Shown: piece by piece, positions 1-8,009 of the stretch
Layout of the letters: every line of letters starts with the position of its first letter
Position numbering within the stretch: the first letter of the stretch is position 1
Source of the DNA: Flagellimonas zhangzhouensis
GTDB taxonomy: Bacteria > Bacteroidota > Bacteroidia > Flavobacteriales > Flavobacteriaceae
Length of the DNA: 64,000 nucleotides
Assembly: GCF_900102925.1 (NCBI RefSeq)
Contig: NZ_FNKI01000001.1
Span: 310,001 to 374,000, forward strand
Reading direction: 5' to 3'
The notes under the pieces: model-generated
What the model was told of the DNA's origin: nothing
The model's input: the letters and a program-made list of their open reading frames with translations, nothing else
The model's database searches: none
Translations under genes and position numbers: made by a program

Positions 1-2094
1 GTAAAAATAGCCGTTGGATACGATGTCGGCATCGAAAATATTATTCACTAACCCTGATAACACAATACTTTTCACAAACGAGTTGGTTTCGATGACATAC
101 TGCACATTAAAATCTGTTTGGGAATAACTATCCAAGGTGGAATTTTCAGAATCTATGTTGCCCATGTATTGCTCTCCAACGAACTTGGTCAACAAGGCCA
201 ATTGGAAATTTTCTTTGGGTTGAAAAGCTAAAATATTACCTGCAACAATTTGCGGCGAATAAGCAATATGGGTATTTCCTAAATTTTCAAGAGTTCCATC
301 ACGTTGAAAATAAAAATCAACATTCCTATTATCGCTCAAAGCAATGTTCGGTCTTACACTAAAAGCACGAGATAATTTAATATTGGCATCCACTTCCAAT
401 CCCAAACGGTAACTATCACCTACATTGGCACGCAATGGCGCACCCACATCGTTCAATTCCCCTGTGAGCACCAACTGATCTTTGTACTTCATGTAGTATA
501 CATTAGTGTTCAACTGAAAACTTGGTGAAACATAACGCCAACCCAATTCAAAATCGTTCAATTTTTCAGGTTTTGGGCTCCCACTTTCGTAATCGTTTCT
601 GTTGGGTTCTCTATTTGCTAAAGCATAAGAGAAATAGAAGTTGTTGTTTTGATTTAAATCAAAGGTCACCCCAGCTTTTGGATTGAAAAAATCAAAGGTG
701 TCATCAACCAAACCTGTTTCATCTCCATTGGCTTGATATCCCACATTTCGATATTGCAAATCGCCAAAAACAGACCATTTGTTGTTCAATTGGTAGTTTA
801 CCTTTGTGTACACATTAAAATCCGTTTTGGTTGAAGTATCATCATAATACCTATCTCGAATTTCGCTATTGCTGGCGTATTGTGCCCAGATGATTTCACC
901 AAAATGATCGCCTTCATACTTGTTGTAACCACCACCAATGATCAACTTTACCTTCTTTTTGGTATATGTTGTTGAGAACACGGTGCCATAAAAGTCATTA
1001 TCCAACCATCTTCTTCTGATCAAATCGGTATTTTCCACCAATTCGCCATTTACGGTAATGGGCTCCAATCCGTATGTTGAAAAATCATCGTCATCGCGAT
1101 ACTGCTCAAAAAATCCCCGTCCTTTGGTGTAGTGCAAAGCTATGTGCATATCCCACTCAGGGCTCCAAGTTTCACTCCAGTGCAGCTGAAAATGGTCTTG
1201 CTTGTAATTATCCACTTCATTATCGTAAAACTGGGTGTTTCCATTGGCATCAGTGTACATTCCTGCAGAGTTGAACGTTCTGTTGGTTTCCAACTCTTCG
1301 GCTGTGATTCCGTTCCAAGCTTGGTAGGTGATTTCATGTCCACCAAAAAGCAAAGCTTTGATCAAGGTATTATCATCTTTATACACTCCTTGAAGAAAAT
1401 ACGAGTCCAATTCAGAACTTGCACGATCTACATAACCATCAGAAGTAATTCTCGACAACCTTCCCGAAAACTCAATATGGTCGTTCAAAAGTCCCGTACT
1501 GAATTTCACATTGTTCCGAAGGGTATTAAAACTTCCGATTGACGATGAAATCCTTGCATAGGCTTCTTCTGAAAAGGCATCCGTAAGCATATTTAAACTT
1601 GCCCCAAATGCTCCAGCTCCGTTTGTAGAAGTTCCAACACCACGTTGCAATTGCAAACTTTGGGTAGAAGATGCAAAATCGGGCATATTTACCCAAAATG
1701 TCCCTTGCGATTCGGCATCATTATATGGGATTCCGTTTATGGTTACGTTCACTCGTGTCGCATCGCTTCCACGTACACGAATTCCCGTGTAACCCACTCC
1801 TGCCCCTGCATCGGATGTAGTGACTACGGCTGGCATAAAATTCATTAGAATAGGCACATCTTGTCCCAAATTTCTGGAGCGAAGCTGTTCTTTGTCCAAA
1901 TTGGAAAAAGTAATCGGAAATTCTTTGGTTACCCGAATGGCTTGTACCAAAACCTCATCGAGCACTACTTTTTTGCCCTCCAAAGTATCCGTTTCGGTTT
2001 CCTGCGCACTTAAATTAAGGGCCAGTCCAGAAAAAGCTAAGGTTGAAAAAAGGATTTTAATGCGATGGTTCTTACTTTTTTTTGTCGGTCGCAT
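1..2094 (-). CDS. TonB-dependent outer-membrane receptor, probable thiamine/TPP importer (C-terminus cut by window edge)
   Basis: The frame stays open for 698 codons from ATG 2094 to the first base of the window. Residues 1-31 are a basic signal peptide ending LNLSAQE. A plug domain follows, with VRGSDATRVNVTINGIPYND and a QRGVGTSTNGAGAFG stretch. The rest is beta-barrel-like, and the visible end (NIFDADIVSNGYFY) suggests only a few tens of residues are missing. An in-frame ATG at 2148 would add 18 residues that spoil the signal peptide, so 2094 is preferred. There is no CarboxypepD_reg domain. The TPP riboswitch just upstream is the main reason to propose thiamine or its phosphates as substrate. 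TonB/ExbBD energisation is family knowledge. Confidence 0.88.
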   Translation of the reverse strand, partial: MRPTKKSKNHRIKILFSTLAFSGLALNLSAQETETDTLEGKKVVLDEVLVQAIRVTKEFPITFSNLDKEQLRSRNLGQDVPILMNFMPAVVTTSDAGAGVGYTGIRVRGSDATRVNVTINGIPYNDAESQGTFWVNMPDFASSTQSLQLQRGVGTSTNGAGAFGASLNMLTDAFSEEAYARISSSIGSFNTLRNNVKFSTGLLNDHIEFSGRLSRITSDGYVDRASSELDSYFLQGVYKDDNTLIKALLFGGHEITYQAWNGITAEELETNRTFNSAGMYTDANGNTQFYDNEVDNYKQDHFQLHWSETWSPEWDMHIALHYTKGRGFFEQYRDDDDFSTYGLEPITVNGELVENTDLIRRRWLDNDFYGTVFSTTYTKKKVKLIIGGGYNKYEGDHFGEIIWAQYASNSEIRDRYYDDTSTKTDFNVYTKVNYQLNNKWSVFGDLQYRNVGYQANGDETGLVDDTFDFFNPKAGVTFDLNQNNNFYFSYALANREPNRNDYESGSPKPEKLNDFELGWRYVSPSFQLNTNVYYMKYKDQLVLTGELNDVGAPLRANVGDSYRLGLEVDANIKLSRAFSVRPNIALSDNRNVDFYFQRDGTLENLGNTHIAYSPQIVAGNILAFQPKENFQLALLTKFVGEQYMGNIDSENSTLDSYSQTDFNVQYVIETNSFVKSIVLSGLVNNIFDADIVSNGYFY

Positions 2095-2146
2095 TGTACC
2101 GCAATTTAAGGCTGCGGACTTGCCTTGAATAATTGAATAGAGTTTC

Positions 2147-2167
2147 ATTCGTAAAAATGTTACGAAT
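2147..2167 (-). promoter_or_regulatory. perfect 8-bp hairpin in leader between riboswitch and receptor start
   Basis: Arms ATTCGTAA and TTACGAAT enclose a 5-nt loop and lie 50-60 nt downstream of the TPP aptamer. The end of the stem includes the AT of the upstream in-frame ATG at 2148. There is no U-tract, so it is not an intrinsic terminator. It could be part of the expression platform that controls translation, which is inference. Confidence 0.4.
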
Positions 2168-2213: not shown

Positions 2214-2306
2214 AAACATAGAAATTCCAAGATGCGGCTTGCGCATTCCCTTGGCAGCATTACCCGCCCAGGTTCATTGGGTATAATCTCAGCCTTATCT
2301 ATGTTT
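2214..2306 (-). promoter_or_regulatory. TPP (THI-box) riboswitch
   Basis: Read on the minus strand, the conserved TPP aptamer blocks appear in order: CTGAGA (2287-2292), TGAACCTG (2269-2276) and GGGTAATGC (2257-2265), followed by a GGGA-containing segment. A closing P1 helix can form between 2298-2306 and 2214-2222 (AAACATAGA with TCTATGTTT). The total of about 93 nt is normal for the class. It lies 120 nt before the receptor ATG at 2094, so TPP should repress that gene. No transcription terminator is obvious between aptamer and start, which favours translational control. Confidence 0.92.
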
Positions 2307-2322
2307 TAAGCTTTCAGTTCTA

Positions 2323-2354
2323 AGTTTTAAGTAGAAAAATATTTACTTAAAACT
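2323..2354. repeat. perfect 11-bp inverted repeat upstream of the riboswitch
   Basis: AGTTTTAAGTA (2323-2333) and TACTTAAAACT (2344-2354) are separated by 10 A/T-rich bases. It may be an operator, a weak terminator or a short repetitive element. A degenerate -7-like TACATTTG lies further upstream at 2403-2410 on the minus strand. No well-spaced -33 partner accompanies it. Confidence 0.4.
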
Positions 2355-2470
2355 AATTACGTAGCACCTATCACTATAGTAAAGCACCCCTTTGAGATGC
2401 CGCAAATGTAATGCTCGGCTTTCATTTTTCATAACAAAAGAGAAAAATTTAAGTCTAGAAGTTAAATAAG

Positions 2471-2944: not shown

Positions 2945-4483
2945 TTAGATTTGGTGCGTTGGTTTTAAAAGGTCGTTAACTGTTTTAACTGGGTTAAAAG
3001 TAACCAATGGAACCTCCACAAAAATGGTGTTCCAAAAAGCCATAGCGCCATTCCAAAGTCCAGGTAGTTCTAAAGCCTTAAGTTCTTTTCCTTCTTGGGT
3101 TTTCCCTGTAATAAATCCTTGTTTTACATCCACAAAGTCGAGCAAATTGTATTTGTTTCCTTTAAAATCACGAACACCGCAAACCAAATCCACAGGATTA
3201 AAGTGGGTTGAATTTTTAAGGATACTCATTTGTTCGGCATTATCGGCATCAATTTGAGCCGACTCAATAATTTGAAGGGAAATATTTCCATCGGAATCCT
3301 TGATCCAAAATGGCCCTCCTCCAGGTTCGCCTTCGTTTTTAACCATTCCGCAAATACGAATAGGGCGATTAAGTTTATCTTTTAAAACTTCCTTTTGCTC
3401 GTTTACGCCCAAATCATCATAATTGTTGGGTATGCGAACATTCAGTTCGCGCTCTAAAAAGGATTTGATTTCGTCTGCTTTATCAACAGAAACATCTCCT
3501 TCCTCTAACATTTTAGCATAACCAAAAGCTTTGTCCTGAACTTTTTTAAGGACTCCAGCCAGCATTTTTTTGCTGTTCGCAACGGTTTCCAAGTTCTTAT
3601 CGACCACTACATTATCAATATTTTTTATGAATATGATATCAGCATCTTGATCGTTCAGATTTTCAATCAATGCTCCATGACCCCCAGGACGAAAGAGTAT
3701 GGAACCATCACTGTTTTTAAAAGGTTGGTTGTCCATATCCACCGCAATCGTATCTGTAGAAGGTTTTTGGTTGGAATAGGAAATATTAAATGTGGTAACT
3801 GTTTCTTCGGAAATTTTAGGTGCCACGGCATTTTCTTCCTCGCTGAACATTTCATCATGTTGCTCAGAAACCGTAAAATGCAAATTTGCCTTTCCATCCG
3901 TTTTGGCATACAGAACGGCCTCTTTTAAATGCTCCTTAAATGGAGTTGCGGTATCATCGCCATATTTATGAAATGGCAATAGTCCTTTCGGGTAAAATCC
4001 GTAATTCAACCCGCTTTCCACCAACATTTCTTTGGCAAAAAGGTAGGCTTCCTCATCTTTATTGGCAGCCTTGCCCATGATGCGTTCCATGATTAAGTTA
4101 TAAAAAGGAAACTTGGACATTTGGTCCGTGAACTTTTGCACGTCTTTATCACCTGTTCGGTCAATATAATCCGCTAAGCTTTCTTTGGAAGGATCGTATA
4201 CATCCAAAAAATTGAACATTGCCTTGAACATTCGGGATGCTGCCCCAGATGCGGGAACAAACTTTAAAAGGTCAAGTGAACCTCGATGGGTCTCAAAATA
4301 GTTGACGAGCTCGTCATGTTCCTTTTCTGAAAAACGAAGAATTCCATTGCCGACTACGGCAGCTTGTGCCAAGTTTACAAAGGGAATACCTTCTTTAAAA
4401 GTTTCAATTTGGTTTATTACTTTTTCCTTGGAAATACCTTTGGAATCCAATTGTTCCAAGTCTTTAGGACTCAATTCAATCAT
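2945..4483 (-). CDS. DUF4301 family protein (pyrophosphorylase-like motifs)
   Basis: This 512-residue cytosolic protein matches the Bacteroidetes DUF4301 family by my recognition of its N-terminal half. No function is established that I know of. Several motifs resemble sugar-nucleotide pyrophosphorylases: PASGAASRM (77-85) like the GxxxRM nucleotide loop, KGLLPFHKY (about 166-174) like the following conserved lysine block, RPGGHGAL (265-272) and KNIDN (287-291) like the UDPGP GHG and VDN segments. The start ATG 4483 overlaps the kinase gene by 8 nt. It is last in the thiamine-binding/PnuC/kinase gene run, so a role in vitamin or nucleotide salvage is plausible but inferred. Confidence 0.85.
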   Translation of the reverse strand: MIELSPKDLEQLDSKGISKEKVINQIETFKEGIPFVNLAQAAVVGNGILRFSEKEHDELVNYFETHRGSLDLLKFVPASGAASRMFKAMFNFLDVYDPSKESLADYIDRTGDKDVQKFTDQMSKFPFYNLIMERIMGKAANKDEEAYLFAKEMLVESGLNYGFYPKGLLPFHKYGDDTATPFKEHLKEAVLYAKTDGKANLHFTVSEQHDEMFSEEENAVAPKISEETVTTFNISYSNQKPSTDTIAVDMDNQPFKNSDGSILFRPGGHGALIENLNDQDADIIFIKNIDNVVVDKNLETVANSKKMLAGVLKKVQDKAFGYAKMLEEGDVSVDKADEIKSFLERELNVRIPNNYDDLGVNEQKEVLKDKLNRPIRICGMVKNEGEPGGGPFWIKDSDGNISLQIIESAQIDADNAEQMSILKNSTHFNPVDLVCGVRDFKGNKYNLLDFVDVKQGFITGKTQEGKELKALELPGLWNGAMAFWNTIFVEVPLVTFNPVKTVNDLLKPTHQI

Positions 4484-5045
4484 GTTGTTGGAGAAGTTTA
4501 TCTATGTGTTTTATTGCCTTTGCCAGTCTAGTGGCCTTATCTCCCTTTAAAGTAACAAAATTTCGGTTATTTTTCTCCAAAGCTTCCTTGAAATACGCAA
4601 ACATTCGTTCACGTTCATCAGGTTTGTCCCTTAGGTCATCTGCTACCCAAGGCGTATCTATATTGGTTAAAAAATAGAGGTCGTAGGTGTTTTTCAAGGC
4701 ATACTTTTCCAAAACAGGGTCACAAGTACTGTTATAATAGGCCTCGGAATATACTTTAGTCTCCAAAAGATCTGTATCACAGATCAATACCCGATTGGCA
4801 GTTTTCGTCAATTCATTTTCCAATTTCATTTGTCCGTATGCAATCGGAACCAAATCGTGTGGTTCGCATGTTTTTTGCTCACGATCCCATTTATCTTGAA
4901 GGTATTCCCTTGCATATTCTGGTACCCACTCGGTATTGTAATGTTGCGCCAGTTGTTGGGACAATGTGGTTTTTCCTGTTGATTCTGGTCCGAAAAGGAC
5001 AATTTTTATGAGGTCTGAAGGTTGTTGACCAAGTTTTTCTTCCAT
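4476..5045 (-). CDS. NadR-like P-loop kinase/ATPase (AAA_28 type)
   Basis: The protein has 189 residues with a Walker A motif GPESTGKT at 19-26. The following segment (EWVPEYAREYL) is typical of the ribosylnicotinamide-kinase domain of NadR. The adenylyltransferase domain of NadR is absent. An upstream in-frame ATG at 5108 would place 21 odd residues before the P-loop, so 5045 is preferred. It overlaps pnuC by 40 nt and DUF4301 by 8 nt, so the three are surely co-transcribed. PnuC transporters are facilitators that need a kinase to trap substrate. The kinase therefore probably phosphorylates whatever PnuC brings in: thiamine from context, or nicotinamide riboside by family analogy. Confidence 0.85.
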   Translation of the reverse strand: MEEKLGQQPSDLIKIVLFGPESTGKTTLSQQLAQHYNTEWVPEYAREYLQDKWDREQKTCEPHDLVPIAYGQMKLENELTKTANRVLICDTDLLETKVYSEAYYNSTCDPVLEKYALKNTYDLYFLTNIDTPWVADDLRDKPDERERMFAYFKEALEKNNRNFVTLKGDKATRLAKAIKHIDKLLQQHD

Positions 5046-5641
5046 GCTAAATATCCCTGAATAGCCAATATGGTAAAAATGAGGTATTGTAACGAAAACA
5101 TACCCCATCCCCTATAGGCATACAAAGGTACGGTAATCAAATCACCCAAGATCCAAAGCGTCCAGTTTTCCAATTTTTTAGTGGCCATATACCACATGGC
5201 GGTGAAGAAAACCCCAGAAGTAAAAATATCTACATAGTTGGTTGGGCCTATTTCAGCACCGAAAATTCTATACACACCATATGTGACCAACATGGTAAGG
5301 ATAAAAAAGCCAAAACCAACCCATTTTTCCTTCGAAGTGGTTCTATTTATTTGAACAACCCATTCTCTATTATCTTTTCTTCGAGCCCAGTTCCACCAGC
5401 CATAAATACTCATTATGGAATAGTAGAAGTTCATCATCATATCACCATAAAGGTGGTCCATTAAAAAAATATAGGTAGTAATCACCGTGGCGACCAATCC
5501 TGTGGGATAGACCAAAATATCTTCCCGCTTGGCATAGATCACACTGGCGATTCCGAAGAAAAAGGCCGTAGCCTCCAGAATGATCAAAGAAAGTTCCCGA
5601 TCCTCGTACGGACCAATAAAAAAATCAAAAATGGGGTTCAT
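5006..5641 (-). CDS. PnuC/PnuT family vitamin-precursor transporter
   Basis: This 211-residue inner-membrane protein has about seven hydrophobic segments. It carries the family signature around IYGWWNWARRK and the ENWTLWILGDLITVPLY helix. PnuC-type facilitators move nicotinamide riboside, riboflavin or thiamine depending on subtype. Here the gene overlaps the thiamine-binding DUF77 gene by 17 nt, and a TPP riboswitch-controlled receptor lies nearby, so thiamine (PnuT) is the favoured substrate. The sequence alone does not settle the specificity. The kinase gene overlaps its 3' end. Confidence 0.88.
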   Translation of the reverse strand: MNPIFDFFIGPYEDRELSLIILEATAFFFGIASVIYAKREDILVYPTGLVATVITTYIFLMDHLYGDMMMNFYYSIMSIYGWWNWARRKDNREWVVQINRTTSKEKWVGFGFFILTMLVTYGVYRIFGAEIGPTNYVDIFTSGVFFTAMWYMATKKLENWTLWILGDLITVPLYAYRGWGMFSLQYLIFTILAIQGYLAWKKNLVNNLQTS

Positions 5642-5885
5642 ATTCGCTTCGGTCGGATTTTACCAATTTCATGGTGAGCACCACATGATCCAAATTTTCA
5701 AAGGATTCTTTGATCTCATTATGCAGCAACTCCATTACTGCATCGTATTCTCCATACACTTGGGTACTTAAAGGATTTTCCAAAACAGTTAATCCAGAAG
5801 CCCTTAATTTTTTGATGAAATCTATAATTGGTGGTTCAAAATTATCTTGTAATGGAGAAAGGGTTAGCTCAACAGATATATTCAT
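5625..5885 (-). CDS. thiamine-binding protein, DUF77/MTH1187 family
   Basis: The 86-residue protein has the ferredoxin-like DUF77 pattern. It opens with a short strand (ISVELTLSPL), followed by a helix and GLTVLENPLSTQVYGEYD, and ends with the strand VVLTMKLVKSD. Members of the family bind thiamine or its pyrimidine moiety in the cytosol. The protein lacks a signal peptide. It overlaps pnuC by 17 nt and so appears to be translationally coupled to it. It may buffer or sense imported thiamine. Confidence 0.82.
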   Translation of the reverse strand: MNISVELTLSPLQDNFEPPIIDFIKKLRASGLTVLENPLSTQVYGEYDAVMELLHNEIKESFENLDHVVLTMKLVKSDRSEYEPHF

Positions 5886-5927: not shown

Positions 5928-6569
5928 TTATCCACCCATCATTTTAATGGCATATACACAGGTAAATCCTTCAAACTCCATGAACTCGATTTCATAATGC
6001 GATTTTTTCCCATGATACATAATCTCTGCCACGGTTCTGCTATCATCAAAAGAAAAATCGATGACATTCATATGCCTTAAAAAGCTAAGTCCGCGCTCTG
6101 CATATATTTTATAGAGAGATTCTTTGGCGCCCCAGACTATGGTCAGTTTTCGAATAATAGCTTCGGCATTGGCCAAAGTTTTATACTCTTCAATGGGCGT
6201 GAATTTATGGGCGATATTTAAAATTTTATCCCGCTGCATTTCAATATCAATGCCCACCTCATCACTTTCACTTACGATTATCCCCGTAAAGTTGTGCGAA
6301 TGGGTAATGGAAATAAATTTTCCGTCTTTTAAATGCGGTTTTCCAAAGTCATCATAATAGAGATCATGGTCCACATAACCCGCTTCCGCCAAAAGGTGTC
6401 GAATGCTTAAAAATGCCCTTCTGTGCGCCTCCGATTTCATCCCGTCCATACGATTTTGGCAATGTGGGGTAAGCTCCACATTCTTAGAAAGTTCGACCTC
6501 TTCTTCGGTAACTTTCCAAATATAAACCTTGGAGGTGGGTGAAACTGTTATGGTTTTGTAAATGGGCAT
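5928..6569 (-). CDS. 4'-phosphopantetheinyl transferase (Sfp superfamily)
   Basis: The protein has 213 residues and both signature motifs: GIDIE at 106-110 and WGAKESLYK at 146-154, which carry the Mg2+ and CoA ligands. It transfers 4'-phosphopantetheine from CoA to a conserved serine of acyl carrier proteins. It is 42 bp upstream of the DUF77 gene on the same strand and may lead that operon. No carrier protein gene lies nearby, so it probably serves fatty-acid synthesis or a pigment pathway elsewhere. Confidence 0.92.
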   Translation of the reverse strand: MPIYKTITVSPTSKVYIWKVTEEEVELSKNVELTPHCQNRMDGMKSEAHRRAFLSIRHLLAEAGYVDHDLYYDDFGKPHLKDGKFISITHSHNFTGIIVSESDEVGIDIEMQRDKILNIAHKFTPIEEYKTLANAEAIIRKLTIVWGAKESLYKIYAERGLSFLRHMNVIDFSFDDSRTVAEIMYHGKKSHYEIEFMEFEGFTCVYAIKMMGG

Positions 6570-6590
6570 AACAAAAGTTAAGTGAATTTG

Positions 6591-6598
6591 TATCTTTG
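6591..6598 (+). promoter_or_regulatory. -7 box of the ahcY promoter
   Basis: TATCTTTG matches the Bacteroidota TAnnTTTG consensus and lies 44 bp before the ahcY ATG. A clear -33 TTG at the expected spacing is not visible. Confidence 0.45.
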
Positions 6599-6641
6599 TG
6601 CACTATTTAAGCTAAGCTACAAAAGTAAATTTAGAAAAAGT

Positions 6642-7958
6642 ATGAGCACAAAGACAATTCCGTATGTACCATTTAAGGTAAAGGATATCTCCCTAGCTGA
6701 TTGGGGAAGAAAAGAAATTGAGCTTGCCGAGGCAGAAATGCCTGGACTAATGGCGTTGAGAGAAGAATACGGAGCGGAACAACCTTTAAAAGGTGCCAGA
6801 ATTGCGGGTTGTTTGCACATGACCATTCAAACTGCAGTATTGATTGAAACTTTGGTTGCCCTTGGAGCGGAAGTTACTTGGAGTTCTTGTAACATATTCT
6901 CTACCCAAGACCATGCAGCAGCTGCAATCGCAGCAGCAGGAGTTCCTGTTTATGCTTGGAAAGGAATGAACGAAGAAGAATTTGATTGGTGTATAGAACA
7001 GACTTTGTTCTTTGGTGAAGACAGAAAGCCATTGAACATGATTTTGGATGACGGTGGTGACCTTACCAATATGGTGTTGGACCAATACCCAGAATTGGCT
7101 GCTGGAATCAAAGGCCTTTCTGAAGAAACTACTACTGGAGTTCACCGCTTGTATGAAAGGGTTAAGAAAGGAACACTTCCTATGCCTGCGATCAACGTGA
7201 ACGATTCTGTGACCAAATCCAAGTTTGATAATAAATACGGTTGTCGCGAAAGTGCCGTAGATGCCATCCGCAGAGCTACCGACACCATGTTGGCAGGAAA
7301 ACGTGTTGTTGTTGCTGGTTATGGTGATGTGGGCAAAGGTACCGCAGCTTCTTTCCGTGGAGCTGGTGCCATTGTTACCGTGACCGAAATAGACCCAATT
7401 TGTGCGCTTCAAGCTTGTATGGACGGTTTTGAAGTTAAAAAATTGGAAACTGTTATTGGCAATGCTGATATTGTTATCACCACAACTGGAAACAAAGATA
7501 TTATCCGTGAAGAGCACTTTAGAGGCTTAAAGGATAAAGCTATTGTTTGTAACATCGGGCATTTTGATAATGAAATTGATATGGCCTGGTTGAACAAAAA
7601 CTACGGAAACACCAAAAATGAAATCAAACCACAAGTGGATAAATATACCATTGATGGTAAAGATGTAATTGTTTTGGCCGAAGGACGTTTGGTAAACCTT
7701 GGTTGCGCCACAGGACACCCAAGTTTTGTAATGAGTAATTCATTCACGAACCAAACCTTGGCTCAAATTGAGCTTTGGAAGTTTAGCGACAAATACGAGA
7801 ACGATGTGTATATGTTACCTAAACATTTGGACGAAAAAGTGGCCAAATTGCATTTAGCTCGTTTGGGTGCTGAATTGACCGAATTGAAGGAAGACCAAGC
7901 CGAATATATTGGTGTTACCGTTGAAGGTCCCTTTAAACCTGAATACTATAGATATTAA
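6642..7958 (+). CDS. ahcY: S-adenosylhomocysteine hydrolase
   Basis: The enzyme hydrolyses S-adenosylhomocysteine to adenosine and homocysteine, completing the methyl cycle in the cytosol. The 438-residue length is normal. Motifs include HMTIQTA (59-65), DDGGDLT (136-142), the NAD-binding GYGDVGKG (226-233), and the C-terminal [20 protein letters not shown] block ending in YYRY. An in-frame ATG at 6582 lies upstream of the likely -7 box and adds 20 non-conserved residues, so [11 protein letters not shown] is taken as the start. The gene is monocistronic, with a strong terminator after it. Confidence 0.97.
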
Positions 7959-7976
7959 GATTTCATCTTTAATCAT

Positions 7977-8009
7977 AAAAAAACCCATGGCAAACACCAT
8001 GGGTTTTTT
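7977..8009. terminator. bidirectional terminator between ahcY and the DUF3332 gene
   Basis: AAAACCCATGG and CCATGGGTTTT form a stem with a 6-nt loop. A-runs and T-runs flank it on both sides, and it lies between convergent genes. Confidence 0.85.

Follow-up and report, generated by a model that had tools for sequence, protein, structure and literature searches.

A NadR-like kinase encoded beside a PnuC transporter is a probable thiamine kinase in the Flavobacteriaceae

Background

Thiamine auxotrophy is common among marine bacteria. In the E. coli pathway, thiamine monophosphate is made by ThiK, and ThiL, whose substrate is thiamine monophosphate, acts next. Uptake and trapping of nicotinamide riboside (NR), on the other hand, is carried out by PnuC and NadR, i.e. 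by a transporter and a trapping kinase. The closest described thiamine system is found in Bacteroides thetaiotaomicron, where an operon encodes the transporter PnuT and the TPK Tnr3 together with OMthi, and deletion of transporters was shown to hurt growth at low thiamine (PMC5613172). A study from 2025 described 8 Flavobacteriales and 3 Cytophagales genomes that encode ThiL and omr1 (a thiamine receptor) and lack key biosynthetic enzymes, a condition it termed salvage; thiK and thiL are named in its accessible text, in which no kinase is named for these salvage genomes (PMC12236431). Another paper reports that omr1 and pnuC dominate B1 expression in Bacteroidetes (PMC12442306).

The locus studied here lies in a 64,000-nucleotide stretch of the genome of Flagellimonas zhangzhouensis, hereafter the window. 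This locus and that of B. thetaiotaomicron share a PnuC-family transporter gene beside that of a thiamine-phosphorylating enzyme (proposed as such here), a TPP riboswitch and an outer-membrane receptor; they differ in that the present locus encodes a NadR-like kinase instead of a TPK, would rely on ThiL for the second step, and additionally contains genes for DUF77 and DUF4301 proteins. A search of part of the literature returned no description of a NadR-like thiamine kinase; what would be new here is an uptake-and-trap pair whose kinase comes from an unexpected family, one known for vitamin B3. In this paper, we have compared the locus among 96 kinase loci from 100 genomes of its own family (Flavobacteriaceae), one per genus, and have surveyed the same genomes with profiles for the kinase, ThiL, TPK (PF04263), ThiK (TIGR02721), ThiC, ThiE, NadA and PnuC.

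Results and discussion

Organization and conservation of the locus

All the features of the locus are on the minus strand. The first gene (5625..5885) encodes an 86-aa DUF77 protein, likely a cytosolic thiamine-binding protein as judged from its match to PF01910 (Thiamine_BP; 27.0 bits, cut-off 24.9); its match to PF07615 (Ykof) is below the cut-off (19.4 bits). It is followed by the genes for a PnuC-family transporter (5006..5641, the module PnuC1), for a standalone NadR-like P-loop kinase of 189 aa (4476..5045), and for a 512-aa DUF4301 protein (2945..4483; PF14134, 738.6 bits), whose best Foldseek match, 3r3i (E=4.9e-10, TM about 0.45-0.50), points to a fold like that of UDP-sugar pyrophosphorylases. 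The overlaps that had been noted between these genes, 17 nt for DUF77/PnuC, 40 nt for PnuC/kinase and 8 nt for kinase/DUF4301, are exact by the coordinates and suggest translational coupling. The list of open reading frames also holds a longer alternative frame for the kinase, with its start at 5108; the start was taken as 5045 because the P-loop and the relatives agree with this position. Further downstream are a putative TPP riboswitch (2230..2401), one stem of which carries a long insert, and an open frame of 716 aa (1..2148), extending past the window edge, for a riboswitch-led protein named from its sequence as a TonB-dependent receptor. The closest named relative found is in Muricauda sp. 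NBRC 101325, whose kinase is 96% identical.

This gene order is highly conserved. PnuC is located immediately 5' of the kinase in 94 of the 96 family loci (and just 5' of it in 79 of 80 named relatives), DUF4301 immediately 3' in 87, and DUF77 no more than 1 kb upstream in 79 and anywhere in the locus in 80, while a TonB receptor gene follows the kinase on the same strand in 87. Even the overlaps are preserved: of the 80 loci measured for DUF77/PnuC, 73 have the exact 17-nt overlap, and of the 95 measured for PnuC/kinase, 91 overlap by 25-49 nt and 58 by exactly 40 nt. The arrangement is beyond chance. Consistent linkage to NAD genes had been named in the sequence-only reading of the locus as a sign against a role in thiamine transport and trapping; none is found among the conserved neighbours, the annotation of which is partial.

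The TPP riboswitch and the TonB receptor

No match was obtained when the whole window was searched against Rfam at the gathering score. In a permissive search, the element at 2401-2230 matched RF00059 with 34.2 bits against a gathering score of 54.3 (E=4.8e-4) and with an insert of 82 nt. Despite the low score, which we ascribe to the long insert, the element is read as a TPP riboswitch: the core motifs are present in it, and two relatives at the same place are over or near the Rfam threshold. Two other weak matches in the window, BaMV_CRE and ncr952, were far under the cut-off and were taken as chance.

With Infernal, 74 of the 96 family kinases were found to have a same-strand match to RF00059 in the 12 kb that follow them, and no kinase had one on the opposite strand. 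A looser sequence pattern was matched at 87 of the 96 loci, a count that is partly trained, as the pattern was composed after 37 of these riboswitches had been viewed; three of the nine loci missed end soon after the kinase, and when 3.5 Mb of sequence was reversed and searched, the pattern had zero matches. It superseded a strict pattern (CTGAGA...GAACCTG), which was matched at only 38 of the 96 loci. Outside the family the looser pattern was found in only 3 of 41 loci, the 38 misses being weak evidence in view of the five riboswitch-led PnuC2 genes that it also missed and that Infernal detected. Within the family, therefore, the module does track with TPP riboswitches. The idea that the nearby riboswitch points to thiamine holds as far as proximity goes, but the riboswitch comes roughly 2 kb after the kinase gene and precedes the TonB receptor gene, not the DUF77-PnuC-kinase genes; since all the same-strand matches sit downstream, we rejected the possibility that the riboswitch controls the kinase operon directly.

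The kinase

The kinase matches PF13521 (AAA_28) with 157.5 bits; PF04263 is not among its Pfam matches, nor is an NMN adenylyltransferase domain, and its 189 aa comprise the kinase domain alone. Against the NadR model TIGR01526 it scores 116.9 bits, far under the cut-off of 341.15. The best PDB matches of its AlphaFold model (pLDDT 94.3) are the ribosylnicotinamide-kinase domains of NadR, e.g. 8x7f with E=9.6e-12 and a TM score of 0.85 by query, and both its fold and its sequence are those of a NadR-type kinase domain. It thus resembles the NadR kinase domains (8x7f, 1lw7, 6gyf) in fold, P-loop and the W, D and R residues, and differs from NadR in being standalone, in lacking the adenylyltransferase domain, in its score under the NadR cut-off and in its thiamine gene context. 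None of the 96 family kinases has lost a catalytic residue. The NadR-shared residues W133, D136 and R139 are kept, which would be compatible with NR as a substrate, and comparing the residues with those of NadR brought up a single, weak candidate site (E95 in the kinase, T in NadR).

A tree built from 144 sequences places the family kinases and most of their standalone relatives in one clade (support 0.97). Outside this clade are the confirmed NadR proteins L226, L235, L253 and L254, as well as L242, L255 and seven distant standalone proteins, six of the family f37 plus L241. L255 and L260 were labelled NadR in the tree by length alone; no adenylyltransferase domain is recognised in the former, and the latter is a fusion of the kinase with an aldose epimerase. 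The genome of the window encodes further AAA_28 proteins.

The PnuC transporter

The module PnuC matches PF04973 with 169 bits and is over the cut-off of the NCBIfam NR-transporter model TIGR01528. A single PnuC, located beside the kinase, is encoded in 84 of the 100 family genomes. In addition there are five PnuC genes, including one in the genome of the window, each of which is led by a TPP riboswitch (Infernal); their products form one clade (support 1.0), which groups with the module PnuC (0.93). Both types have in common the pair Met149-Trp150, with Met in 94 of 94 and Trp in 93 of 94 module PnuC, and both residues in all five riboswitch-led proteins. The pair is found in none of the six NR-type PnuC (four beside NadR, one beside a longer kinase in which no adenylyltransferase domain was recognised, and 4qtn, an NR transporter of solved structure), which have Ser145 and Thr or Gln149 instead. 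Judged by these residues and groupings, the module PnuC probably carries thiamine itself, contrary to its name in TIGR01528, and is likely a PnuT-like facilitator. Outside the family, the Met-Trp pair is found in the PnuC of f4 and f8; the PnuC of f3, f5 and f9 look NR-like. As a strict mark of thiamine transport, the pair would be contradicted by five other PnuC paralogs that lack it; these include the sole PnuC of genome G012, located behind a riboswitch-receptor pair, and that of G076, both of which genomes keep the kinase.

Thiamine genes in the family

The kinase is encoded in 96 and ThiL (over the cut-off) in all of the 100 family genomes, TPK in six, and ThiK over its cut-off in none, the seven weak ThiK matches scoring 26-43 bits against 299. 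ThiE was found in 32 genomes at 80 bits or above, the next matches being below 50 bits, and ThiC in 22, all of which also have ThiE. Both are missing from 68 genomes: 66 of them have the kinase but no TPK, one (G055) has kinase and TPK, one (G097) has TPK only, and none has neither. The window's own genome, in which PF04263 has no match, is one of the 66. The module had been expected to track with missing thiamine synthesis, and this is borne out: the kinase is present in 67 of the 68 genomes without ThiC and ThiE, and TPK in the remaining one.

As ThiL is retained in all 68 of these genomes, a source of the monophosphate is needed; without ThiE, the monophosphate has to be either the product of a thiamine kinase or of external origin. 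Because 66 of the 68 have the kinase alone, it is the best candidate for converting thiamine to thiamine phosphate; where TPK and ThiK are missing, it is the only known candidate for the step between imported thiamine and ThiL. TPK is present in three of the four kinase-less genomes versus 3 of the 96 with the kinase (Fisher p=4.8e-4, a value that is based on only four kinase-less genomes and ignores relatedness). NadA was found to be uninformative for distinguishing a role in thiamine from one in NR: it is present in 35 of the 96 genomes with the kinase and in three of the four without it (p=0.15).

The proposed route and its alternatives

With a probability of roughly 0.8, we conclude that the NadR-like kinase is a non-orthologous thiamine kinase coupled to PnuC-mediated uptake, as had been suggested from the sequence, and that it replaces TPK and ThiK in the family; gene content, above all the 66 of 68 genomes, and riboswitch proximity support this reading. 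Thiamine would enter through the TonB receptor and pass the inner membrane via PnuC1 with no energy input, whereupon the kinase would phosphorylate it to the monophosphate and thereby trap it, and ThiL would convert the monophosphate to TPP; DUF77 may hold or buffer thiamine, or pass it on from PnuC to the kinase. The proposed reaction is that of E. coli ThiK followed by ThiL, catalysed by a protein of an unrelated family. A one-step formation of TPP, as by TPK, was set aside for the kinase, ThiL being kept in all 68 genomes that lack ThiC and ThiE; HMP and thiazole were set aside as substrates, ThiE being missing from those genomes. We consider a wider claim somewhat less secure, though still likely: that the protein represents a third thiamine kinase family beside ThiK and TPK, provides the main route to TPP in most of the family, and works with PnuC and DUF77 as a coupled import-and-trap unit, the NCBIfam NR label being wrong family-wide.

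The most obvious competitor is that the kinase and PnuC handle NR, their adjacency to a thiamine receptor being due to chance or history. The closest solved relatives of the kinase are indeed NadR proteins, with which it has catalytic residues in common, PnuC passes the NR-transporter model, and NR uptake could matter because NadA is missing from 62 of the 100 family genomes, G000 among them. Such a role, however, would leave 66 of the 68 genomes without a thiamine kinase although they retain ThiL; moreover, the kinase lacks the adenylyltransferase domain, its presence does not track NadA loss, and in the genome G001 a PnuC-NadR pair exists separately from the module. We therefore regard it as unlikely. 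A kinase used for both thiamine and NR, together with a PnuC carrying both, would suit the NadR ancestry, the conserved pocket residues and the many genomes that lack both ThiC and NadA; yet the gene content ties the cluster to thiamine only and the PnuC is unlike the NR type at positions 145 and 149, which makes dual use a slimmer prospect still. Least probable of all, and very unlikely, is that thiamine phosphate is made by DUF4301 or by some unknown enzyme, leaving the kinase with a different job. DUF4301 is fused to the kinase at loci L073 and L256 and has what appears to be a nucleotidyltransferase fold, and the additional AAA_28 proteins of the window's genome offer other candidates, but the fold matches UDP-sugar pyrophosphorylases, and DUF4301 does not follow the kinase, being kept in G077 and G097, which have TPK and no kinase.

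If the kinase is a thiamine kinase, the cluster appears to supply the missing B1 capture enzyme in the many flavobacteria that have neither B1 synthesis nor the known capture enzymes. A candidate is thus named for the missing kinase step in flavobacterial B1 salvage, one PnuC subfamily is predicted to transport B1 rather than B3, and the kinase gene could serve as a marker that reveals B1 salvage where a survey relying on ThiK and TPK would overlook it.

Exceptions and distribution in the phylum

Three of the four kinase-less family genomes (G002, G077 and G097) have TPK; the fourth, G015, has no TPK but encodes ThiC and ThiE, and is the sole genome of the 100 without any PnuC. In G077 the module PnuC is retained along with DUF4301, the kinase and DUF77 being absent. 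In G097, the PPTase and PcrB genes lead directly into DUF4301, the riboswitch and the receptor; DUF77, PnuC and the kinase are absent from this interval, and a TPP-riboswitch-led PnuC is found elsewhere in the genome. These were probably losses rather than ancestral absences.

In a draw of 296 genomes from the phylum, the kinase profile matched 78 and the TPK profile 150. Within the order and class but outside the family, TPK is present in 10 of 10 kinase-less genomes (from five genera) versus 1 of 34 with a kinase match (p=4.4e-9, uncorrected for relatedness), and in this single genome, G285, the matching protein is a genuine NadR, which carries a CTP_transf_like domain. Elsewhere in the phylum, TPK is found in 0 of 15 genomes with a kinase match versus 122 of 205 without one (p=2.8e-6, relatedness ignored), seven of the 15 matches being in frames of at least 300 aa that may be NadR.

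Coexistence of TPK and the kinase, seen in 3 of the 96 family genomes and in the family genus g101, counts against the thiamine reading. In g101, TPK is encoded in 17 of 17 genomes and the kinase also in 14, so a simple replacement of TPK by the kinase does not fit this genus. Most of its kinases are encoded in frames of some 736 aa; the two that were examined are fusions to DUF4301, and the residues are intact in those TPK-coexisting kinases that were checked.

Genomic neighbourhood of the module

The genes lying upstream of the DUF77-PnuC-kinase module (window region 5928-8000) are conserved in position across the family, the PPTase gene in 90 and the adenosylhomocysteinase gene in 89 of the 96 kinase loci, which were collected from 100 genomes at one per genus.

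In genome G051, a second copy of the module (L347:2023-2956) was also found, which is interrupted by the contig end.

The DUF4301 protein (window 2945-4483) has a fold resembling that of UDP-sugar-pyrophosphorylase; certain lineages (loci L073 and L256) carry it as a fusion with the kinase. A passing reference to DUF4301 occurs in one paper among those searched. The TPP riboswitch of the window (2230-2401) carries an 82-nt insert within one stem, and therefore falls under the Rfam threshold.

Kinase relatives and a second PnuC

The standalone kinase relatives of family f37 (L236-L240, L261) are positioned outside the main clade of the kinase tree; no PnuC was found near them, and their genomes gave no match to thiamine pyrophosphokinase. 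No PnuC was found adjoining the kinase of family f5 (L209:7007-7096; L221), where a TPP riboswitch and a TonB receptor come after the kinase at a distance of no more than about 80 nt. At L260:3666-5159, an aldose-1-epimerase domain is fused to a relative of the kinase, and a TPP riboswitch pattern and a TonB receptor are located downstream of this fusion.

The genome of the window itself encodes a second PnuC (locus L167, G000:C8:584500-594500; about 2093-2662 within the locus) immediately after a TPP riboswitch (1913-2018), and an AAA_28 gene in convergent orientation lies 3' of it (L002).
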